Shown here piece after piece: positions 9,798-21,517 of a stretch of DNA of 53,144 nt (positions within the stretch are counted from its first letter, which is position 1; each line of letters opens with the position of its first letter). The stretch is from Erythrobacter sp. (lineage in GTDB: Bacteria; Pseudomonadota; Alphaproteobacteria; Sphingomonadales; Sphingomonadaceae): NCBI RefSeq assembly GCF_023653175.1, contig NZ_JAMNXL010000006.1:1-53144 (forward strand), written 5' to 3'. The translations under genes were made by a program, and so were the position numbers. The notes beneath the pieces are model-generated. The model worked only from the letters and a program-made list of their open reading frames with translations, was not told where the DNA came from and searched no databases.

Positions 9798-10211
9798 CTA
9801 CCGATCCACCCCCTTTACCTTCCCCCACTGCCGCGCCGCCGTGTAGCCGAGATAGCCGGTGCCGAAGAGGGCGTAGAGCGGCTCGGGCAGGCCGGCGAGG
9901 TAGGCGTTCATGCCCGCGGCGATCTCGCGGGCGGCCGCGGGATTGAAGGCGGAGAGCAGCCCCATCGGCAGCGAGGCGAGCAGCAGGATGTACATCACAT
10001 AGAGGAAGCTCGGGCGCGCGCGGCTGGTCCACGGGTCGTTCGAATTTGCCTCGGCAACGATCGCCTTGAGCTGGGTTTCGAGCATCTGCATTTCCTGCGT
10101 GCCCTGGAGCGCGATGAGTTCCAGCTTGGCTTTCGCCCTCGCTTCCTTGTCGGGGATGATCTTGTCGATGATCGAGGCGATGGGGCCGATGAGGACGTCG
10201 ATGATAGCCAT
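9798..10211 (-). CDS. holin of the GTA 3-TM type (holin family protein)
   Basis: MAIIDVLIGPIASIIDKIIPDKEARAKAKLE...DPWTSRARPSFLYVMYILLLASLPMGLLSAF...LYALFGTGYLGYTAARQWGKVKG; matches the remembered GTA_holin_3TM pattern. AGGAG RBS upstream of the ATG at 10211. Confidence 0.75.
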   Translation of the reverse strand: MAIIDVLIGPIASIIDKIIPDKEARAKAKLELIALQGTQEMQMLETQLKAIVAEANSNDPWTSRARPSFLYVMYILLLASLPMGLLSAFNPAAAREIAAGMNAYLAGLPEPLYALFGTGYLGYTAARQWGKVKGVDR

Positions 10212-10249
10212 GGCAGCGCGCTCCTGTGGAGGTGAGTCGCGCAACCGAA

Positions 10250-10289
10250 TAACCAAATAGGTTAATGTAGGAAAATGAAATAACCTATT
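10250..10289. promoter_or_regulatory. putative operator/promoter region of the holin gene
   Basis: TAACC-AAATA-GGTTA perfect palindrome at 10250-10264; AATAGGTTA (10256-10264) inverted against TAACCTATT (10281-10289); minus strand reads GGTTATTTCATTTTCCTACA (10285-10266). Confidence 0.5.
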
Positions 10290-11187
10290 GCGCGCCCGCT
10301 TCGGCGAGCAGTCGCTGCGCCAGCACCAGATGTGGGCGGTCGAGCATCGCCCCGTCGAGCGCCACCACACCCGCGCCGGGGTGGTCGGCAAAGGCCTGCA
10401 CCACAGCGCGGGCGTGCGCCAATTCCTCGGCACTGGGAGTGAAGGCGGCGTTGATCGGATCGACCTGCGCTGGGTGGATCGCGAGCATCCCGCGGAACCC
10501 CTGCGCCCGCACCCGCCGCGCACGGGCGGCCAGCGCGTCGAGATCGCGGAATTCGGGCTGGACCGTCTCGATCGCCGCGACTCCCGCCGCCGAAGCGCCG
10601 ATCAGGCACAGGCTGCGCGCCATTTCGTAGGTGTGCGCATATTCGCCATCGTCCCCGCGCTGCTCGCGCGCGCCGAGCGCCGAGGACAGGTCTTCTGCCC
10701 CCCAGCTCATCGCCACCAAGCGCGCCTTGCCGGGGTAATCGCCCGCATAATCGCCCGTCCTGAACATCGCCGCCGCCGTTTCGGTGACGAGTGCGGCGAT
10801 CAGGGTGCGGCCCAGCGGGATGCCGTTCGCTGCCTCCAGCGCGGTGAGATAGTGGTGGAGCTGCGTCACATCGGCCGCGCCTTCGGCCTTGGGCAGGAAC
10901 ACCCCGCCGGGGCGCGAGGGCATGATCGCCGCGAGATCGGCGATGCATTCGTGCCCGGTGATCGGATTGATCCGCACCCACAGCCGCGCCTTGTTCTTCG
11001 AGGCGGCGATCTGCTCGGCGACCATCTGGCGCGCGGCGGGCTTGTTCTCGGGCGAAACCGAATCCTCAAGATCGAGCAGTGCGATATCCGCCGCGCTGCC
11101 TTCCGCCTTGCCCATCTTCTTTTCGCTGTCGCCCGGCGCGAACAGCCATGAGCGCATGCGGGGCGGGGTGGGGGCGGTGTGGGGCAT
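10285..11187 (-). CDS. HpcH/HpaI aldolase / citrate lyase beta-like CoA ester lyase
   Basis: RSWLFAPGDSEKKMGKAEGSAADIALLDLEDSV...KARLWVRINP...GMLAIHPAQVDPINAAF. Confidence 0.9.
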   Translation of the reverse strand: MPHTAPTPPRMRSWLFAPGDSEKKMGKAEGSAADIALLDLEDSVSPENKPAARQMVAEQIAASKNKARLWVRINPITGHECIADLAAIMPSRPGGVFLPKAEGAADVTQLHHYLTALEAANGIPLGRTLIAALVTETAAAMFRTGDYAGDYPGKARLVAMSWGAEDLSSALGAREQRGDDGEYAHTYEMARSLCLIGASAAGVAAIETVQPEFRDLDALAARARRVRAQGFRGMLAIHPAQVDPINAAFTPSAEELAHARAVVQAFADHPGAGVVALDGAMLDRPHLVLAQRLLAEAGAQ

Positions 11188-11353
11188 GGGACTTCCTCTC
11201 CTCGTCGCACTTGCGCTTACGAAGCGCGCCCGCGCATCGCAAGCCTGCGTCATTTGCCCGGGGCCGCGCCGCCGCAGCGTCTTTCCGTTTGGCGAGGGGG
11301 GGCTCGCGTTGCTATAGGCAACTCAAATTACCAACCATCGGGGAGCGCCGCCT

Positions 11354-11830
11354 GTGGCAATCGCATTTTCTGTAAACGGCAAGCCCGTCAGCGTGGAGGT
11401 CGATGCCGACACGCCGTTGCTGTGGGCGCTGCGTGACGATCTCGGGCTGACCGGCACCAAGTTCGGTTGCGGCATTGCGGCCTGCGGGGCGTGCTCGGTG
11501 CATGTCGACGGCAACCTCACCCGCTCGTGCAGCGTGCCCGTCAGCGAGGTTGCGGGCAAGGCCGTGACCACGATCGAGGGGCTGAAGAGCGCCGATGGCG
11601 TGCTCCACAAGGTCCAGCAGGCGTGGATCGACGCGCAGGTGCCGCAATGCGGATACTGCCAGTCGGGCCAGATCATGGCCGCCGTGGCGCTGATCGAACA
11701 GGTCGGCACGCCGTCGGACGCGCAGATCGACGAGGCGATGACCAATATCTGCCGCTGCGGCACCTATCCGCGCATCCGCAAGGCGATCCTCGCCGCGACC
11801 GGCGCCGCCGCTCAGACGGGAGATGCATAA
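11354..11830 (+). CDS. (2Fe-2S)-binding protein, isoquinoline 1-oxidoreductase alpha-like subunit
   Basis: [20 protein letters not shown] and [10 protein letters not shown]...[15 protein letters not shown]. Confidence 0.94.
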
Positions 11831-14094
11831 TGGCCGATAACCCCAATCCCGATCTCGACCTGCCCGAAACCGCTGCTCCGGCGCCCAAGCCCAAGAAGAA
11901 GGGCATCAAGCGCCGTATCTTCCTCGCTGGTTCGGCGCTGGTGGTGGGCGGCGGCATTTTCGGCGTGTGGTGGACCGACAGCAGCGCCAAGGCCAAGGGC
12001 AATGCGCTGATCGGCGGCGAGGGCCGCCAAGCCTTCGGCAGCGTCATGACCATCGCCGAGGACGATACCGTCACGGTCTTCTCGCCGCATATCGACTTCG
12101 GGCAGGGTTCGCACACCGCGCTCGCGCAGATGCTCGCGGACGAGCTTGATGCGGACTGGAACAAGGTCGCGATCGAGCAGGCCCCGGCCGACCTCGCCTT
12201 CGCCAACGCGTCGCTCGCCAAGGGCTTCCTGCCGACCATGGCGGGAGAGACGCTGGCAGGGCTGATCCCCGATGCAGTCATCGGGATGATGGCGCGCTCG
12301 ATGCCGCTGATGATTACCGGCGGTTCCTCGGCGATCCGCTTTACCGGCGAGATCGCGATGCGTCGCACCGGCGCGGCGGTGCGCGCGGCGCTGATCGCCG
12401 AGGCCGCCGACCGGCTGGGCGTGCCCGAGAGCGAGCTCACCACCGCCGACAGCAAAGTGATCCATGCCGCGACGGGCAAGTCGCTGCGCTATGGCGAACT
12501 CGCGGCGGGCGCGGCCGAGCGCTCGCTTTCCAGCGATCCGGTGCTCAAGACTCGCGAGCAGTGGAAGCTGATCGGCACCGGCGTTCCCCGCCGCGACATC
12601 CCCGCCAAGGTCGATGGCTCCGCGGTCTACGGGATCGACTTCACGCTCCCCGAGATGCGCGTCGCCACCATCGCGGCGGCCCCTGTGCGCGGCGGCACGC
12701 TGGAAAGCGTGGACGAGGCTCCGGCGCTCGCCGTCAAGGGCGTCGAGAAGGTCATCAAGCTGCCCGACGCGGTGGTGGTGATCGGCAAGGGTTACTGGCC
12801 CGCGACCAAGGGTCTTCAGGCGCTTTCGCCGAAGTTCTCCGATGGCGGCCATGCGGCGGTCTCGACCCCGGCGATCTACGCCGCGCAAGCCAAGCTGATG
12901 GCCGGCGGCAAGCCCGACAACGAGGCGGGCGAGGGCGATGTTGACGGCGCATTCAAGGCGGCGGGTGCCAAGCTGGTCGAGGCCGAGTACCGCGTCCCCT
13001 TCCTCCACCACGCGATGATGGAGCCCTTCGCGCTGACCGGTCATTTCAAGGACGGCAAGCTCACCATCTGGGGCGGGCTGCAAGACCCGCTCAGCACCCG
13101 CGCGCGGGCGGCCAAGGCGATCGGGCTCGGGATCGACGATGTGGTGTTCAACACCATGATCATGGGCGGCGGCTTCGGTCGGCGCTTCCCCGACATCGTC
13201 GAGATCATCGACCAGATCGCGCTAGTGGCGAAAGAGGTGCCTTACCCGGTCAAGCTCGTCTGGAGCCGCGAGGAGGAAGTGCGCCACGGCTCCTATCGCC
13301 CGCAATCCTCGGCCAAGCTGTCGGCATCGCTCAAGGACGGTGCGATCACCGCGATGCGGATCGATTACGCGCAGAGCGGCAATGCCGAAGGCGAGGTGCC
13401 CTTCATCTACAAGCTGCCCGCCACCTCGCGGCGGCACTTTGCCTACCAGTCGAACCAGATCGACGGGCCGTGGCGCTCGGTCAATGCGACGCAATTGGGC
13501 TTCTACACCGAAAGCTTCATGGACGAGCTCGCGTTGGCGGCGGGGGAGGATCCCTACCAGTTCCGGCGCAAGCATCTGCCCGAAGGCTCGCGGCACCTGA
13601 AGGTGCTCGATGAAGTCGCCAAGCGCGCCGGCTGGGGCACGCCGCTGCCCGAGGGTGTGGGCCGCGGGATCGCCATTGTGGAAAGCTTCGACACGATCGT
13701 CGCCGAAGTCGTCGAGGCGACCCTCAAGGAAGACGGCAGCCCCAAGGTGGTGCGCGCCTTCGCGGTGGTCGACTGCGGCACCACGGTGAACCCCTTGAAC
13801 GCCGAGGCGCAGATTGCGGGCGGCCTGATCATGGGGCTGTCCTCGGCGATTGGCGAGGCGGTGACGCTCGACAAGGGCGCGGTGGTCGAGAGCAATTACA
13901 CCGACTACCCGATCCTCAAACTGGCGGACGCGCCGCCTGCGGTCGACGTGCACTTTGCCGACAGCGGCGCCAAGACCGGCGGGATCGGCGAGCCAGGCCT
14001 GCCGCCCGCGACCCCGGCGCTCGCCAACGCGCTCGCATCGCTGACCGGCAAGCGTATCCGCAACCTGCCGATCCTGACGCAGGCGAAAGCCTGA
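11830..14094 (+). CDS. xanthine dehydrogenase-family molybdopterin-binding subunit with N-terminal Tat-like signal
   Basis: KRRIFLAGSALVVGGGIFGVWW signal/anchor; GMMARSMPLMITGGSSAIR, MGGGFGRRF, GGIGEPGLPPATPALANA motifs; ATG overlaps the upstream TAA. Confidence 0.93.
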   Translation: MADNPNPDLDLPETAAPAPKPKKKGIKRRIFLAGSALVVGGGIFGVWWTDSSAKAKGNALIGGEGRQAFGSVMTIAEDDTVTVFSPHIDFGQGSHTALAQMLADELDADWNKVAIEQAPADLAFANASLAKGFLPTMAGETLAGLIPDAVIGMMARSMPLMITGGSSAIRFTGEIAMRRTGAAVRAALIAEAADRLGVPESELTTADSKVIHAATGKSLRYGELAAGAAERSLSSDPVLKTREQWKLIGTGVPRRDIPAKVDGSAVYGIDFTLPEMRVATIAAAPVRGGTLESVDEAPALAVKGVEKVIKLPDAVVVIGKGYWPATKGLQALSPKFSDGGHAAVSTPAIYAAQAKLMAGGKPDNEAGEGDVDGAFKAAGAKLVEAEYRVPFLHHAMMEPFALTGHFKDGKLTIWGGLQDPLSTRARAAKAIGLGIDDVVFNTMIMGGGFGRRFPDIVEIIDQIALVAKEVPYPVKLVWSREEEVRHGSYRPQSSAKLSASLKDGAITAMRIDYAQSGNAEGEVPFIYKLPATSRRHFAYQSNQIDGPWRSVNATQLGFYTESFMDELALAAGEDPYQFRRKHLPEGSRHLKVLDEVAKRAGWGTPLPEGVGRGIAIVESFDTIVAEVVEATLKEDGSPKVVRAFAVVDCGTTVNPLNAEAQIAGGLIMGLSSAIGEAVTLDKGAVVESNYTDYPILKLADAPPAVDVHFADSGAKTGGIGEPGLPPATPALANALASLTGKRIRNLPILTQAKA

Positions 14095-14104
14095 GCGCGA
14101 GCCT

Positions 14105-14716
14105 TTGGCACTTGGGGGCTGGTCGGCGCTGATCCTCGCCGCGGGCGCGGGGCGGCGGTTCGGCGCCAATGAGGGTGGGGGCAAGCTCCTTGCCGATCTC
14201 GGCGGCGCGCCGGTGATCCGGCGGGTGGCCGAGCGGGTGGTCTCCGCAGGATTTGCCGAGGTGATTGCCATCACCGGAGCGGACGAGGCGAACATCAGGC
14301 GCGCAATCGCGGGTGCGGATGTGTCGATACGCCACGCCTCCGACTGGGCCGAAGGCATGGCCGCGAGCTTGCGCACCGGCATTGCTGCGCTCGATCCCGA
14401 GTGCATGGGGGTGTGCGTCTTCCTCGGCGACATGCCGCTGGTGCCGGTAGGGCTGTGCGCAGACCTTGCCGCGCGGGCGCAAGCGGCGGGCTTCGCCGCG
14501 CGGCCGCGTCTTGCGGGCAAGCCCGGGCATCCCGTGGCCTTCGCCCGCGCCGCCTTTGCCGATCTGCTCGCGCTGACCGGCGATCAGGGCGCGACCGCGC
14601 TGCTGAAGTCGCGGCCCGAGGCGGTCGCCTATTGCGACACCGCCGACAGCGGTGTGCTGCTCGATATCGACACGCCCGCCGATCTCGAAGCCGCCGCGGC
14701 CGCATGGAAGGCCTGA
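14105..14716 (+). CDS. MocA/MobA-like nucleotidyltransferase (molybdenum cofactor cytidylyltransferase-like)
   Basis: LILAAGAGRRFG...GGKLLADLGGAPVIRRV...VFLGDMPLV...DIDTPADLE; TTG start assumed. Confidence 0.85.
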   Translation: MALGGWSALILAAGAGRRFGANEGGGKLLADLGGAPVIRRVAERVVSAGFAEVIAITGADEANIRRAIAGADVSIRHASDWAEGMAASLRTGIAALDPECMGVCVFLGDMPLVPVGLCADLAARAQAAGFAARPRLAGKPGHPVAFARAAFADLLALTGDQGATALLKSRPEAVAYCDTADSGVLLDIDTPADLEAAAAAWKA

Positions 14717-15636
14717 GAAATCTCTGCCACAAGTGAAAGCGCCACCTCGCGCGGAGCCTTGCCGAAGCCGTAGAGGCCAATCGGGGCATGGAGCCGCGCC
14801 AGCGCCGCCTCGCCGACGCCGTGACCGCGCAACTTCGCCATCCGCTGCTCGAGCCGCACGCGGGCGCCGATCGCGCCGACATAGAAGGCCTGCGAGCACA
14901 GCGCCGCGGCAAGCCCGCGCTCGTCATCCTCGCGGTCATGCGAGAGCACGGCGATCGCCGTCCAGCGGTCGGGCGCGATATCCGCCAGCGCGGCGGCAGG
15001 GTCGTTGCGGTGGTAGACGATCCCCGCCATCGGCGCGGCCTCGGGCCCGCCAGGGGTGACGAGCGCAACCTGCCAGCCCATCGCCAGCGCCAGCGAAGCG
15101 GCGGTGAGCGTCGCCCCGTCCTCGCCGATCAGCACCAGCTTGAGCGGCGGGGTGAAGAGGCGGGTGTAGCGCTTGCCGTCCCAGTGGTCTTGCGCAGGCG
15201 CCTCGCCTGCGGCTTCGGCGCGGCGGGTCACGCCGTTGCTCGACCACAGCACCGGCGTGCGGGTGCGCCAGCCTTCGAGCAGTGCGGTGACCGCAGGTTC
15301 GCCGCCTGCGACCGGCTCGACCAGCACGGTGATCCCCGATCCGCAGGCGAGCTTGATGTCGATCCACGGGCTGCCCTCGCCATAGCGCAAGGTGCGCGGC
15401 GCGCCCTCTGCCAAGGCCTCGCGGCCATGGCGGGCAACGTCATCCTCGATGCAGCCGCCCGACAGGAACCCCCAGTGCTCGCTTTCGGTGATGAGCATCT
15501 GCGCCCCCACATCGCGCGGGGCCGAGCCGTCGACCGCGACCAGCGTCGCGATGGCAAAGCGCTCCGGCAGCACAGGGCAAGCCAGCAGGGCCTCGCGGAT
15601 ATCGTCGACAGGAGCGGCAAGACGCCAGCGGGTCAT
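14629..15636 (-). CDS. XdhC family protein
   Basis: IATLVAVDGSAPRDVGAQMLI...GFLSGGCIEDDVARHG...AFYVGAIGARVRLEQRMAKL...GLYGFGKAPREVALSLVAEI. Confidence 0.9.
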   Translation of the reverse strand: MTRWRLAAPVDDIREALLACPVLPERFAIATLVAVDGSAPRDVGAQMLITESEHWGFLSGGCIEDDVARHGREALAEGAPRTLRYGEGSPWIDIKLACGSGITVLVEPVAGGEPAVTALLEGWRTRTPVLWSSNGVTRRAEAAGEAPAQDHWDGKRYTRLFTPPLKLVLIGEDGATLTAASLALAMGWQVALVTPGGPEAAPMAGIVYHRNDPAAALADIAPDRWTAIAVLSHDREDDERGLAAALCSQAFYVGAIGARVRLEQRMAKLRGHGVGEAALARLHAPIGLYGFGKAPREVALSLVAEISQAFHAAAAASRSAGVSISSSTPLSAVSQ

Positions 15637-15747
15637 GGGCGGGGAGGGGCTTTCGTCGGGAGGCCTGAGCAAGCCGCCAGCCTAGACCGCGCGCGCCCGG
15701 CGCGCAATTGCGCGGGGCGATCAGCGGATGGAAGGAAAGAGGTCCAC

Positions 15748-15824
15748 TGGTCGGGACGAGAGGATTCGAACCTCCGACCCCCACACCCCCAGTGTGATGC
15801 GCTACCAGGCTGCGCTACGTCCCG
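15748..15824 (-). tRNA. tRNA-Pro(GGG)
   Basis: Reverse complement CGGGACGTAGCGCAGCCTGGTAGCGCATCACACTGGGGGTGTGGGGGTCGGAGGTTCGAATCCTCTCGTCCCGACCA; cloverleaf, anticodon GGG, encoded CCA. Confidence 0.96.
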
Positions 15825-16022
15825 TCACCAGTGGAGCGGGGCCTATAGGCGCGGCTTCAATTGCTGGCAAGCGGGTTTGAAAGGGCACCTGTGTTGCAAC
15901 TGTGCACGGTCTGCGCCCCCTCGCGATTGCGACCCGCTTGCATTGCTGCTACGCGCGCCCACTTGAACGCACGGGGCGGACGCCTCGGACGCATATTCAC
16001 GGGATCTGACGGGCTCTAGCGC

Positions 16023-16355
16023 ATGACAATCGACCTTCTTGCTGCCGCTGCCGGGGCGGGCGCGCCTTCGGGGGCGGCCTTCTGGCTCAACATCGTGCCG
16101 ATCGTCGGCATGATCGCGATCTTCTGGTTCCTTATCATCGCTCCGCAGATGAAGAAGCAGAAGGAACATCAGGCCAAGATCGCGGCCGTCAAGAAGGGCG
16201 ACCAGGTGGTTACCGCGGGCGGCCTCGTCGGCAAGGTCGTCAAGGTCGACGACGTCTATGTCGAGCTCGATCTGGGCCCCAATGTCCGCGTCAAGGCAAT
16301 CAAGGCGACGCTGGGTGACATCATTCCGCCGGCCGGCAAGCCTGCCAACGACTGA
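16023..16355 (+). CDS. yajC: preprotein translocase subunit YajC
   Basis: FWFLIIAPQMKKQKEHQAKIAAVKKGDQVVTAGGLVGKV; followed by secD and secF. Confidence 0.96.
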   Translation: MTIDLLAAAAGAGAPSGAAFWLNIVPIVGMIAIFWFLIIAPQMKKQKEHQAKIAAVKKGDQVVTAGGLVGKVVKVDDVYVELDLGPNVRVKAIKATLGDIIPPAGKPAND

Positions 16356-16425
16356 TCCTGCGCGCGCGCGGGCCCTCGCGGCCGCTCGCGCGACGATGAA
16401 CTTTTGCGTGTGAGACCCTGACGCA

Positions 16426-18024
16426 ATGCTCGACTTTCCCCTCTGGAAAAAGCTCTCGCTGTGGGCGATCACGCTGGCAGCCTCGCTGCTGGCGCTGCCC
16501 TCGCTGGTCAATGTGGCCGGGCTCGACTGGCCCGAGGCGCTGCCCAGCCCGCAGGTCAATCTCGGGCTCGACCTTGCCGGCGGCTCGCACCTGCTGCTCG
16601 AGGCCAAGGCGACCGACGTGCGCGCGCAGCGGCTCGAAAACATGGAGGAGACGGTCCGCCAGCTGATGCGCAATGCCTCCCCGCGCATCCGCATCGGCGA
16701 CGTCTCGACCGCGGGCGGCGAGCTTTCGTTCATCCTCGAGAACGCGGCCGATATCGACCGCGCGCGCGGGCTGATCGAGCCGACCATGCAGGGCGCGACC
16801 ACGGTGCGCGAGTGGGAGCTGCGGGTTGTCGATGGCCAGCGCATCGTGCTCAGCCAGACCGAGGCCGGGGTGAACCAGGCGATCGACGATGCGATGGACA
16901 GCGCCACCGAAGTCGTGCGCCGCCGCATCGACGAGCTCGGCACGCGCGAGCCGACCATCATCCGCCAGGGCGAGACCCGCATCGTGGTGCAGGTGCCGGG
17001 GCTGCAGGACCCCGAGGCCTTGAAGGCGCTGGTCGGCCAGACCGCGCAGCTCGAATTCAAGCTGGTCGATCTCGATGCCCTGCCGACGAATATCCAGGCC
17101 GGCATCGCGCCTCCGGGCAGCGAGATCGTGCCCTATGCCCCCGGCACCCCGGGTGCGGGCAGCGCGATCGCGGTCAAGCGGCTCGGCGGAATCCGCGGCG
17201 AGAACCTCACTGGCGCGCAGGCCGAGCGTGACCCGCAGAACGGCCAAAGTGTGGTGACCATCGCCTTCGACGCGCAAGGCGGGGCCAAATTCGCCAAGCT
17301 GACCACCGAGAACGTCGGACGGCCGTTTGCGATCATCCTCGACGGGCAGGTGCTCTCCGCGCCCAACATCAACGAGCCGATCCTCGGCGGGCGGGCGCAG
17401 ATCGCGGGGAGCTTCACGCCCGAGAGCTCCAACAACCTCGCGATCGCGCTGCGTTCTGGCGCGCTGCCGGTGCCGCTGGCGGTGGTCGAGGAACGCACCG
17501 TCGGGCCGGACCTCGGTGCGGATTCAATCCGCAAGGGCCTGATCGCGATGGGCATCGGCAGTCTGGCGGTGATCGCGCTGATGATCGCAACCTATGGCCG
17601 TTTCGGCATCTATGCCACGGTCGCGCTGGTGTTCAACGTGCTGATGCTGCTCGGGCTGATGGCGCTGGGCGGCTTCACGCTGAGCCTGCCGGGGATCGCG
17701 GGCTTCGTCATCACCATCGGCGCGGCGGTCGATGCCAACGTGCTGATCAACGAGCGCATCCGCGAGGAGCGCGCGCGCGGGCGCCGGGTCATCGCCGCGG
17801 TCGAGACCGGCTACAAGGAAGCCAGCCGCGCGATCTTCGATGCCAACCTCACCAACCTCATCTCCGCGCTGGCGCTGGGCATGTTCGGCAGCGGCCCGGT
17901 GCGCGGCTTTGCGGTGGTGCTGTTCATCGGCATCATCACCTCGGTGTTCACCGGCGTGACCCTCACCCGCATGTTCGTCGCCGGATGGCTGCGCAAGGCG
18001 CGCCCCAACGACATCACCATCTGA
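16426..18024 (+). CDS. secD: protein translocase subunit SecD
   Basis: GLDLAGGSHLLLE...AVDANVLINERIREE...GFAVVLFIGIITSVFTGVTLTRMFV. Confidence 0.97.
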   Translation: MLDFPLWKKLSLWAITLAASLLALPSLVNVAGLDWPEALPSPQVNLGLDLAGGSHLLLEAKATDVRAQRLENMEETVRQLMRNASPRIRIGDVSTAGGELSFILENAADIDRARGLIEPTMQGATTVREWELRVVDGQRIVLSQTEAGVNQAIDDAMDSATEVVRRRIDELGTREPTIIRQGETRIVVQVPGLQDPEALKALVGQTAQLEFKLVDLDALPTNIQAGIAPPGSEIVPYAPGTPGAGSAIAVKRLGGIRGENLTGAQAERDPQNGQSVVTIAFDAQGGAKFAKLTTENVGRPFAIILDGQVLSAPNINEPILGGRAQIAGSFTPESSNNLAIALRSGALPVPLAVVEERTVGPDLGADSIRKGLIAMGIGSLAVIALMIATYGRFGIYATVALVFNVLMLLGLMALGGFTLSLPGIAGFVITIGAAVDANVLINERIREERARGRRVIAAVETGYKEASRAIFDANLTNLISALALGMFGSGPVRGFAVVLFIGIITSVFTGVTLTRMFVAGWLRKARPNDITI

Positions 18025-18037
18025 GGAGCAGGGACAC

Positions 18038-19015
18038 ATGAAACTCCTGAAGCTGGTTCCCGACAACACCAATATCCAGTTCCTCAAGCTGCGCGTGCCG
18101 TTCTTCCTGCTCAGCCTCGTGCTGATCCTGGGGAGCTGGATCGCGGTGGGGGTCAACGGCCTTGCCTTCGGCGTCGACTTTGCCGGCGGTCAGGAAGTGC
18201 GCATGACCTTCACCCAGCAGACTGTCGCCCCGATCCCGAGCTTGCGCGAGAAGATCGCCGGCCTCGGCTATGGCGAGCCGGTGGTGCAGGAGTTCGGCGC
18301 CCCCAACCAGGTCTCGATCCGCGTCAAGCTGCCCGACGACGCCGCGGCCGCGCCCGATGCCGCCAAGGCGATCGGCGAGCGCGTGATCGCGACGGTGAGA
18401 GCCGACCATGTCGATGCGCGGGTCGACGGCAACGACACCGTGTCGGGCAAGGTCGCCGGCGAGTTCCGCAACCAGGCGATCCTCGCGCTGCTGGCGGCGA
18501 TGGCGGCGGTCTCGGTCTATATCTGGGTGCGCTTCGAATGGCAGTTCGGCGTGGGCGCGATGTTCGCGCTGGTGCACGACGTGTCGATCACGCTGGGCCT
18601 GTTCGCGCTCACCCAGTGGGAGTTCAGCCTGCAGATCGTCGCCGCGATCCTCGCGATCATCGGCTATTCGCTGAACGACACCATCGTCGTTTACGACCGC
18701 ATCCGCGAGAACCTCAAGAAGTTCCGCAAGATGGAGATGGGCGCGCTGCTCGACCTGTCGGTCAACGAGACGCTGGCGCGCACGGTGATGACCTCGCTGA
18801 CGCTGTTCATCGCGCTGATCCCGCTGCTGCTGTTCGGCCCGCCGAGCCTGTTCGGCATGGTCGCGGCGATCACCGTGGGCCTGTTCGTGGGCACCTATTC
18901 CTCGGTCTACATGGCCGGGCCGCTGCTGATCTGGATGGGGGTGACCACCAACAGCTTCGTCCCCACCGAAACCGCGCTCGACAAGCAGGAAAAGCTCGCC
19001 AAGGGGCAGGGTTGA
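18038..19015 (+). CDS. secF: protein translocase subunit SecF
   Basis: FGVDFAGGQEVRMTF...IGYSLNDTIVVYDRIREN; directly after secD. Confidence 0.97.
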   Translation: MKLLKLVPDNTNIQFLKLRVPFFLLSLVLILGSWIAVGVNGLAFGVDFAGGQEVRMTFTQQTVAPIPSLREKIAGLGYGEPVVQEFGAPNQVSIRVKLPDDAAAAPDAAKAIGERVIATVRADHVDARVDGNDTVSGKVAGEFRNQAILALLAAMAAVSVYIWVRFEWQFGVGAMFALVHDVSITLGLFALTQWEFSLQIVAAILAIIGYSLNDTIVVYDRIRENLKKFRKMEMGALLDLSVNETLARTVMTSLTLFIALIPLLLFGPPSLFGMVAAITVGLFVGTYSSVYMAGPLLIWMGVTTNSFVPTETALDKQEKLAKGQG

Positions 19016-19058
19016 TTTCTCGGGTTCGCTAGCGCGAACCGGCAGGTCTGCGCCGCCG

Positions 19059-20240
19059 TCAGGCGGCCAACAGCCCCTCATAATGCGCCGCCAACGCGGC
19101 GGCATTCGCGTCCCAGCTGAAGCCCTCGGTCAGCGCCGCCACCGCCTGGCGTGGGGGCGGTTCGGCGAGGATCGCGTTGATCCCGGCCGCCACCGCATCC
19201 GGACCGCGCGCCACCAGCCGCCCGGCCACATCGCTCGCGATCAGCTCGCGCGCGCCGCCCACGTCGCAGGTGACCACCGGCGTCCCGCAGGCGAGCGCCT
19301 CGACCCAGGCATTGGCGAGGCCCTCGCTCGCGGTCGGCAGCACCATGACGTCGGCGGCCGACAGCAGCAGCGGCATCAGATCATGGTCGATCGAGCCTGC
19401 AAAGAACACGCGCTCGGCTACGCTTTCGCGCTGCGCCTGCGCGCGAAGAGCCGCCTCCGCCTCGCCCTTGCCGATCAGCACCAGCCGCGCCTCGGGAATG
19501 GCTTGCAGCGCCTTGATGGCAATGGCCTGACCCTTGCGCTCGATCAGCGCGCCGACACAGGCGAGCAGCGGCACCCCGGCCGGCATGGCAAAGCCCAGCT
19601 CCTCGGAAAGCTGGCGGCGCAGCTGCGGGTGATCGAAGGGCCGGAATCGGTCGCGGTCGAGCCCGGTGTAATGCACCGTGATCTTCTCGGCCGGCATCCC
19701 CATTGCCGCCATCTGGCGGGCCAGATCATGGCTCACCGCTAGGAGGCCCTTGGCTTGCTGTGCGGCCTCCAGCATCTGGGCGCGGGCAAAGCCTTCCTTG
19801 CCCCACAAGGTGATGTCACTCCCGCGCGCCTTGATCGACAGCGGCAGATGCAGCGCGCGCGCGATGCTGGCGGCAGCGGGGCCATCGGGGAAGAAAAACT
19901 GCGCATCGACGAGGTCGAACGGCGCCTCGCCGTGGAGGCGCTGCGCCAGCGGCAGCACGGCCCGCGCGATGGCCGCGGCGTTGCGGCGCGAGCCGATGCG
20001 CGGGATCAGCGTGAAGCGCGGGCGGTGGACGGTGACGCCGCCTTCCTCGGCCACTTCGGGCAGGTCGGCGAGCGCGCGGTAGCGCCCCAGCACCAGTGGC
20101 GGCAGGCCGATGGGATTGACCACCGTAACCCGCCAGTCCCCGCGCTTGGCCAGCGCCTCGACCGAGCGCGCGACGAAGGTGCCGAACCGCGGACCCGCCG
20201 GGTTGGGATAGAGTGTCGAGAGGACGAGGACGTGCTTCAC
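19059..20240 (-). CDS. glycosyltransferase family 4-like protein
   Basis: VLVLSTLYPNPAGPRFGTFVARSVEAL...LLACVGALIERKGQ...VMVLPTASEGLANAWVEALACGTPVVTCDVGGARELI. Confidence 0.92.
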   Translation of the reverse strand: MKHVLVLSTLYPNPAGPRFGTFVARSVEALAKRGDWRVTVVNPIGLPPLVLGRYRALADLPEVAEEGGVTVHRPRFTLIPRIGSRRNAAAIARAVLPLAQRLHGEAPFDLVDAQFFFPDGPAAASIARALHLPLSIKARGSDITLWGKEGFARAQMLEAAQQAKGLLAVSHDLARQMAAMGMPAEKITVHYTGLDRDRFRPFDHPQLRRQLSEELGFAMPAGVPLLACVGALIERKGQAIAIKALQAIPEARLVLIGKGEAEAALRAQAQRESVAERVFFAGSIDHDLMPLLLSAADVMVLPTASEGLANAWVEALACGTPVVTCDVGGARELIASDVAGRLVARGPDAVAAGINAILAEPPPRQAVAALTEGFSWDANAAALAAHYEGLLAA

Positions 20241-20264
20241 GCCGCCTGCCTATCGCCCCCCACG

Positions 20265-20843
20265 TTAAAGCGCTCTAACCAGCATGAAGGCAACCGCGAC
20301 CCATGGCGGGTTGTCGACCACCACCTGTTTCTGGCCCGCGCCGGGCGGCAGCAGGCCGACGAGACTGCCGCGCCGGTCAATCAGCCGTCCGAAGGCGAAG
20401 CGCCCGCCGGGCTTGGGGACGAGGCAGTCGCGGTTGATCGCCGATTGCACCGCTTGCGGATCGAGCGGGCGCATCCACACCAGATCGCCCGGGCGATATT
20501 CTCCGACGCTCTCGGTCACCGCGACCACCATCGCCGGCGACCCATCGCTCTGCGTCAGCGCATCCGGCGCAAGCGCTTCGCGCGGGGCGGTGAGGGCCTG
20601 CGGGCCGGCGGCGGTGAGGTCGGCGACGATCTGCGCCGGGGCCGCCGCCTCGTCACGCATCAGGCTGGCGGGTTCGACGCCCATTGCCGCGGCGATCTTG
20701 TTCATCCAGCCGAGCGACAGGCGGCGCATCCCGGTTTCGAGCCTGCCGATGGTCTGCGCGGTGGTCGGCGGATCACAGGCGGCGGCAAGATCGGCGAGGG
20801 TCAGCCCCTTGGCCTTGCGGATGTCGCGGATGCGGTTGGTCAT
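20265..20843 (-). CDS. XRE-family HTH regulator with S24/LexA-like C-terminal region
   Basis: IRDIRKAKGLTLADLAAACDPPTTAQTIGRLETGMRRLSLGWMNKIAAAMGV HTH; C-terminal YRPGDLVWMRPLDP...RFAFGRLIDRRG resembles the S24 fold without an evident catalytic dyad. Confidence 0.85.
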   Translation of the reverse strand: MTNRIRDIRKAKGLTLADLAAACDPPTTAQTIGRLETGMRRLSLGWMNKIAAAMGVEPASLMRDEAAAPAQIVADLTAAGPQALTAPREALAPDALTQSDGSPAMVVAVTESVGEYRPGDLVWMRPLDPQAVQSAINRDCLVPKPGGRFAFGRLIDRRGSLVGLLPPGAGQKQVVVDNPPWVAVAFMLVRAL

Positions 20844-20944
20844 GTCAGGCCTCAAGCAGCGAAGCGGTAGGGGAACAGAAACGCCTCAAGTAGCGGTTGC
20901 GAAGCACAGCCGAAGGCTGAACCGGTAGGCATCAAGAACCCTCG

Positions 20945-20983
20945 GGAAAGAAATAACCGGATTGGTGATTTTTCTTTCCTACA
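20945..20983. promoter_or_regulatory. putative shared operator between the divergent HTH regulator and DUF6456-like genes
   Basis: GGAAAGAAATAACC-GGATT-GGTGATTTTTCTTTCCTACA: extended imperfect palindrome; the 20964-20983 half matches the holin promoter at 16 of 20 positions. Confidence 0.5.
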
Positions 20984-21034
20984 GATGCACCCTCTTGGCA
21001 AGCCTTCTTGGCAACTCAAGCGGAGGATTCGCCC

Positions 21035-21517
21035 ATGAAGCGCCATCTCGTCGAACGCGAACTCACCTCGGAAGGCCCGCGGCAGCGTCCGGCAGGCCCC
21101 GGCGGCCTAGCGCGGTCACGCTCGGTGACGGTCAATCTCGCCGAGAGCCCGCTCGCCTGGCTGCATGCGCGCGGGCATCTGTCTGAGCGCCTGTTCGACG
21201 CGGGCGAGGCGCTGCGCGCGGATTACGAACGCGCCCAGCTGCCGGCGAGCATCACCATGCGCTGGGACCCGGTGCGATCGAAGTCGACCGCGCCGGGCGG
21301 CCTCGACCCTTCCGAGAAGCACATCGCCGCGCGGCGGCGTTTCGATGGGGCGATTTCTGCAGCGGGGCGCGGGCTGGAGGACATCCTGTGGCGCGTGGTC
21401 TGCGCGGGCGAGGCGCTTCCGCAAGCGGAAAAGCATCTCGGCTGGCCCTCGCGCAGCGGCAAGCTGGTGCTGCGGATCGCGCTCGAGCGGGTGGCGGATT
21501 ACTACCGGATCAGGTGA
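21035..21517 (+). CDS. DUF6456-like domain protein (possible GafZ / GafA C-terminal-like)
   Basis: NLAESPLAWLHARG...LFDAGEALRADYERAQLPASITMRWD...LGWPSRSGKLVLRIALERVADYYRIR fits the DUF6456 pattern as remembered; GGAGG RBS 8 nt before ATG 21035. Confidence 0.7.
   Translation: MKRHLVERELTSEGPRQRPAGPGGLARSRSVTVNLAESPLAWLHARGHLSERLFDAGEALRADYERAQLPASITMRWDPVRSKSTAPGGLDPSEKHIAARRRFDGAISAAGRGLEDILWRVVCAGEALPQAEKHLGWPSRSGKLVLRIALERVADYYRIR

Follow-up and report, generated by a model that had tools for sequence, protein, structure and literature searches.

Our analysis of a 53,144-bp stretch of an Erythrobacter sp. genome (the window) indicates that the promoters of two genes some 10 kb apart – one encoding a holin of the type associated with gene transfer agents (GTAs), the other a DUF6456 regulator – probably belong to a single dispersed GTA regulon. 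Judged from sequence, two cis-elements mark this regulon: TTTCCTAC, located at the -35 position, and a palindrome, AACC-N5-GGTT, with the DUF6456 protein and a divergently encoded Xre protein as their respective putative readers. The elements, their positions, their conservation and the gene assignments are matters of observation. GTA control is known mainly from Rhodobacter and Caulobacter; the two elements are the first candidate DNA code for such control in Erythrobacter and its relatives.

A first-pass annotation of the window drew attention to a 20-mer shared by the two promoters (10266-10285, minus strand, at the holin; 20964-20983, plus strand, at DUF6456), and took it as the possible mark of a dispersed GTA regulon with one regulator for both genes. 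On re-reading the window, coordinates, strands and distances to the ATG were correct. The main idea – a dispersed regulon with common cis-elements – stands, but not in the form of one 20-mer and one regulator: the 20-mer is a composite of TTTCCTAC (at 10274-10267 and 20975-20982, respectively) and the palindrome, and since these elements are separable there are probably two regulators. In the holin 20-mer the GGTTATTT part runs into the stop codon of the preceding gene, and orthologous promoters do not in general conserve it; the conserved partner of TTTCCTAC at this site is the palindrome just downstream (10266-10248, minus strand). At DUF6456, GGTGATTT makes up the right half of this palindrome, at 20952-20970.

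Allowing three mismatches, GGTKATTTNNNTTTCCTACA has three matches in the window (0.01 expected from shuffles) and six in the whole 3.7-Mb genome (none for a reversed-pattern control), with perfect matches genome-wide confined to the holin and DUF6456 sites, although the pattern was derived from these same two sites. TTTCCTAC alone provides an independent test: the window holds exactly two copies, in the holin and DUF6456 promoters. The third window match to GGTKATTTNNNTTTCCTACA (11313-11332, minus strand, three mismatches) lies 5′ of a CitE-like gene; having neither TTTCCTAC nor the palindrome, it was set aside as unrelated.

The holin gene (9798-10211, minus strand) is monocistronic and encodes a 137-aa protein (PF11351, E 2.5e-30; PHROG holin). 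Both it and the DUF6456 gene are nearly universal in some 60 congeneric genomes of the Erythrobacter group, and the element is conserved upstream of the orthologues. Exact copies of TTTCCTAC stand in 58/59 DUF6456 promoters, its eight columns carrying 2.0 bits each against a mean of 0.53 over the remaining 72 positions (58 promoters), and the element is near-universal in the holin promoters of the genus, despite divergence of the flanking DNA. The upstream flanks of the holin promoters show a mean identity of 42%, which argues that conservation reflects selection and not recent ancestry. The combined holin-type pattern (TTTCCTAC-N3-AACC-N3-T-N-GGT, one mismatch allowed) occurs at the holin in 56 of 61 genomes, the control being almost empty, with just three further matches across the 61, all of them head-spike promoters. 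At about one match per genome, at the holin, the pattern is thus not frequent before unrelated chromosomal genes, a possibility that the first-pass annotation had raised. A broader pattern, YTTTCCTACW-N14-TA, was rejected as a sole definition of the regulon because it matches mostly coding or repeat sequence. Among the papers searched, none was found to describe the shared promoter motif.

In the holin promoter TTTCCT (10269-10274, minus strand, within TTTCCTAC at 10267-10274) lies 17 nt before a -10-like hexamer beginning with TA, TATTCG (10246-10251, minus strand). In the DUF6456 promoter TTTCCTAC (20975-20982, plus strand) is followed by TTGGCAAGC (20995-21003, plus strand), the GCAAG of which begins 17 nt after TTTCCT; this promoter is odd in having a fixed GCAAG (1.9-2.0 bits per column, 58 promoters) where a TA-starting -10 would be. 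A scan with the sigma-70 consensus returned no promoter at either site. That TTTCCT occupies the -35 position is indicated firstly by the GTA cluster promoter, which has TTGACA in the matching register after that same palindrome, and secondly by head-spike promoters free of the palindrome, where TA occurs at spacing 17 in 12/22 cases and at any other spacing in no more than three.

The palindrome reads ATTAACC-TATTT-GGTTATT at the holin (10248-10266, minus strand), where it is a candidate operator within the -35/-10 spacer and AACC-N5-GGT is conserved among holin promoters, and AATAACC-GGATT-GGTGATT at DUF6456 (20952-20970, plus strand), where it precedes the -35 position, within the divergent intergenic region, and AACC-N5-GGT is exact in 51/58 relatives. 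Relative to TTTCCTAC it is therefore upstream at DUF6456 and 2-3 nt downstream, within the would-be spacer, at the holin. The palindrome pattern returned 71 matches, almost all of them at loci of the proposed regulon, as against five when reversed as a control. Exactly two fall in the Erythrobacter genome itself, at DUF6456 and at the GTA cluster, and the distance from palindrome to TTTCCT at the former equals that from palindrome to TTGACA at the latter. DUF6456 promoters of the host family combine the palindrome with TTTCCTAC or TGTCCTAC; those of other families of the order keep mainly the palindrome. Upstream of DUF6456 and the GTA cluster the palindrome could be an activator site, and regulation could be of either sign. 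To our knowledge AACC-N5-GGTT corresponds to no known CI or LexA site.

The GTA structural cluster was located by means of PF09931 and TerL (PF13547, the GTA TIM barrel, had no match in the genome). Its promoter had been named as a place where the 20-mer would count as support; what it carries, in our genome as in others, is the palindrome half, the 20-mer as written being absent, with TTGACA in place of TTTCCT. The arrangement is palindrome-TTGACA-17-TA (TTAACCTGATTGGTTATTTATCTTGACATCGTGACACTCATTGGTTATCAG at G000:C159:10816), then a conserved leader that includes the stretch GCATCATCGAgAAATaGCGATTCGCC, then an intrinsic terminator; TTTCCTAC itself is found in 1/30 of these promoters. The terminator precedes the start of the small terminase in 35/43 GTA loci. 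Since GafZ is an anti-terminator at the Caulobacter GTA cluster (PMC11150451), the DUF6456 protein is, by analogy, likely to act as an anti-terminator at this leader, for which the terminator is circumstantial evidence, and the elements predict a leader anti-termination switch. The holin leader likewise holds a conserved word: GCGACTC follows the -10 and precedes the start codon in 28/30 relatives (at most one mismatch). The word GCATCATCGAgAAATaGCGATTCGCC of the GTA leader, with GCGA[CT]TC recurring in that of the holin, is a possible anti-termination RNA site. At locus L351 (G032:C344:3500-9000) the old palindrome-TTGACA promoter (position 681) lies apart from the small terminase, with what is probably a transposase insertion in between, and the gene now has in front of it another palindrome, accompanied by TTTCCTACA (position 2977).

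More than half of the genomes yielded no intact structural cluster, and yet in many of these the regulators, the holin, and the holin and DUF6456 promoters persist; the regulon may therefore serve for more than the release of GTAs, or the losses may be recent. A separate observation concerns a deletion with identical endpoints in at least 12 species: some 12 kb are gone by comparison with an intact cluster (L098:4164-17668), and TerL is fused out of frame at codon ~151 to codon ~24 of DUF2793, the last gene of the cluster. In a tree of the TerL N-terminus the 12 carriers are scattered (12 changes) and interleaved with intact relatives, and no clear microhomology was found at the endpoints. Is this a recurrent precise deletion, or an old polymorphism of producers and non-producers?

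Head-spike operons, named at the outset as a place to look, do have the element: TTTCCTAC stands in front of the spike-base gene (NF048002, RCAP_Rcc01079 family) at 30/30 loci, in one case as TTTCCTAT, and the operon of our own genome (G000:C144:6182) is among the carriers. The -10 side of these promoters is barely conserved and the palindrome is retained in about eight species. In 14/30, our genome included, a LexA box (GTTC-N7-GTTC) lies near the place that the palindrome takes elsewhere; the promoters of the holin, DUF6456 and the GTA cluster that were tested showed no such box. The presence of LexA boxes on TTTCCTAC promoters suggests SOS control of head spikes, and would in many species connect the spikes of GTAs with the SOS response.

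The combination of TTTCCTAC and a LexA box also occurs at VirB1-like transglycosylase genes situated beside a tyrosine integrase, on integrative conjugative elements. A GTA endolysin had been named as another place where the motif would count as support; the transglycosylases do bear TTTCCTAC, but their proximity to an integrase, together with near-identical promoters in different species, led us to reject them in this role, and no GTA endolysin was identified. TTTCCTAC is thus not exclusive to GTAs, and a promoter of this type may also serve integrative conjugative elements.

Extension of the holin-type pattern to 84,980 species genomes gave matches among which, as listed, at least 49 of 80 checked loci are holins. 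Solitary genes resembling small terminases (PHROG 4044) lie behind a holin-type promoter at at least six loci of Sphingomonas-type genomes, as do, at no fewer than seven loci in Novosphingobium and other Sphingomonadaceae, members of a repetitive fibre-like family (MPNPPVTFPA...), two of which were tested and had no Pfam or PHROG match. The metagenome-assembled genome SZAS-28 has at least four matches to the pattern.

What, then, reads the two elements? The DUF6456 gene (21035-21517, plus strand) encodes a 160-aa protein like GafZ and the C-terminal domain of GafA (PF20057, E 5e-40; 137 bits against a cut-off of 26.3). A sequence search of the PDB gave no matches. In the structural model (pLDDT 81) the helical C-terminal domain is closest to domains of sigma factors that bind the -35, with 3vfz as a neighbour (TM 0.85 to target, rmsd 1.3 over 59 columns), although the Foldseek E-values are weak (best 1.0) and resemblance to sigma region 4 is common to many HTH proteins. 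The sigma-like model, taken together with the finding that the C-terminus of GafA binds -35/-10 regions (PMC9638019), makes this protein a candidate reader of TTTCCTAC.

In the relatives examined, the Xre/CI-like gene (20265-20843, minus strand; 192 aa) and the DUF6456 gene are divergently oriented. Its product combines an N-terminal HTH (Pfam HTH_3) with a C-terminal LexA/CI S24-like domain. The AlphaFold model of this protein (pLDDT 87) finds a lambda-186 hybrid repressor (Foldseek E 8e-7) and then LexA; by sequence the PDB yields matches to the HTH alone. By alignment position, compared by hand with the LexA motif, the catalytic pair is missing, the Ser position being variable (T/S/R/K) and the Lys position being Gly in FGRL. 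The recognition-helix stretch TTxQTIGRLETG, like the palindrome, is nearly invariant across families. Its position and conservation make the Xre protein the leading candidate to read the palindrome.

As to the reader of each element and the sign of regulation, we infer the following. With TTTCCTAC at the -35 (TTTCCT, 17 nt, -10), sigma-70 holoenzyme alone would use these promoters poorly, and the DUF6456 protein would help RNA polymerase to do so, thereby activating its own gene together with the holin and head-spike genes. AACC-N5-GGTT would be the operator of the Xre/LexA-fold protein: in the holin spacer it would block RNA polymerase, while at the DUF6456 gene and the structural cluster it sits just upstream of the -35. 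The TTGACA, leader and terminator of the cluster are as expected if DUF6456 also anti-terminates there in the manner of GafZ. More tentatively, DUF6456 may be a mimic of sigma region 4 that reads TTTCCTAC instead of a -35 element; the GTA accessory promoters would then be usable only once it is made, and interchangeable repressor operators – a CI-like palindrome where lysis and structural genes are concerned, a LexA box for spikes – would set the stress that releases each gene.

It is possible, though we are doubtful, that the palindrome is bound by Xre as proposed while TTTCCTAC is read not by DUF6456 but by a GafY/DnaA-like or some other activator. In Caulobacter it is GafY and not GafZ that binds some 18 accessory promoters (PMC11150451, PMC9632790), and elsewhere in the order there are families with DUF6456 proteins but without TTTCCTAC in the corresponding promoters. 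Yet the 160-aa protein contains no GafY/DnaA-like domain, no GafY-type gene adjoins it here or elsewhere in the family, the upstream neighbour being the divergent Xre gene, and neither the DnaA box nor the IHF consensus is enriched in 90 promoters. That TTTCCTAC is a mere weak variant of the sigma-70 -35, by which lethal promoters are kept weak while Xre or LexA does all the regulating, we consider unlikely. That it is paired with the palindrome in some promoters and with a LexA box in others (14/30 of those for spikes), and is present in LexA-box promoters of conjugative elements, fits this idea; however, eight fixed columns (2.0 bits, 58 promoters) amount to a constraint far beyond need, and the AC at positions 7-8 falls outside the -35 hexamer. 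A dedicated alternative sigma factor reading TTTCCTAC-N15-TA is more improbable still: the fixed -35/-10 geometry of spike promoters speaks for it, but their -10 side is barely conserved, DUF6456 promoters have GCAAG and the GTA cluster TTGACA, and no linked sigma gene was found. Chance similarity or common ancestry of the two promoters, conceivable for a pair 16/20 identical and picked by eye, is already refuted by conservation in some 60 species and three unlinked operons with diverged flanks, and by the concentration of the holin-type matches listed from 84,980 species genomes mostly in Sphingomonadaceae/Erythrobacteraceae.

The reading that we favour, with DUF6456 at TTTCCTAC and Xre at the palindrome, supplies a sequence code for finding GTA-regulated genes in Sphingomonadales and a candidate reader for each element. 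Among its closest parallels is the GafY/GafZ/RogA/IHF system of Caulobacter crescentus, with which it shares a DUF6456 protein, an activator gene that is autoregulated (here putatively) and scattered accessory genes, along with a terminator 3′ of the main promoter. In Caulobacter a LexA-like repressor without catalytic residues, RogA, acts at the activator promoter, that of gafYZ (PMC9632790), and RogA and Xre alike are proteins of about 200 aa with an HTH and a LexA/CI S24-like domain predicted to be missing the catalytic Ser/Lys. The CcGTA -35 is degenerate, and exchanging the -35 of PgtaT freed it from its need for GafYZ (PMC11150451); for the GafYZ activators prediction of a binding motif proved impossible (PMC9632790), and GafZ acts solely at the main GTA cluster (PMC11150451, PMC9632790). 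Differences are nonetheless plain: the repressor-like and DUF6456 genes diverge from each other here; the RogA operator GGAA-N4-TTCC occurs in 0/90 promoters (0/30 for DUF6456), the candidate site being AACC-N5-GGTT; the IHF consensus was not found in the 90; no described counterpart of TTTCCTAC was found; and there is a holin, none being reported in Caulobacter. Across the same 90 promoters consensus sites for CtrA, IHF, RogA, the DnaA box, sigma-54 and RpoH are essentially absent.

GafA of Rhodobacter capsulatus (rcc01865) likewise has a DUF6456-type C-terminus, there binding promoter core regions, and a regulon in which holin and head-spike genes are dispersed from the main cluster; it differs in being a single fused protein with a DnaA-like N-terminus, and the CtrA motif TTAA-N7-TTAA occurs in 0/90 promoters here. 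The operators of lambda CI and LexA offer a further likeness, in the 19-bp palindrome with conserved halves, the site within a -35/-10 spacer and the LexA/CI fold of the candidate repressor, although the S24-like domain of Xre is predicted to be non-cleavable. Finally, the GTTC-N7-GTTC of 14/30 head-spike promoters is that of the SOS promoters of Alphaproteobacteria, with the difference that here the boxes are set on a TTTCCTAC promoter, near the place that other species give to the palindrome.
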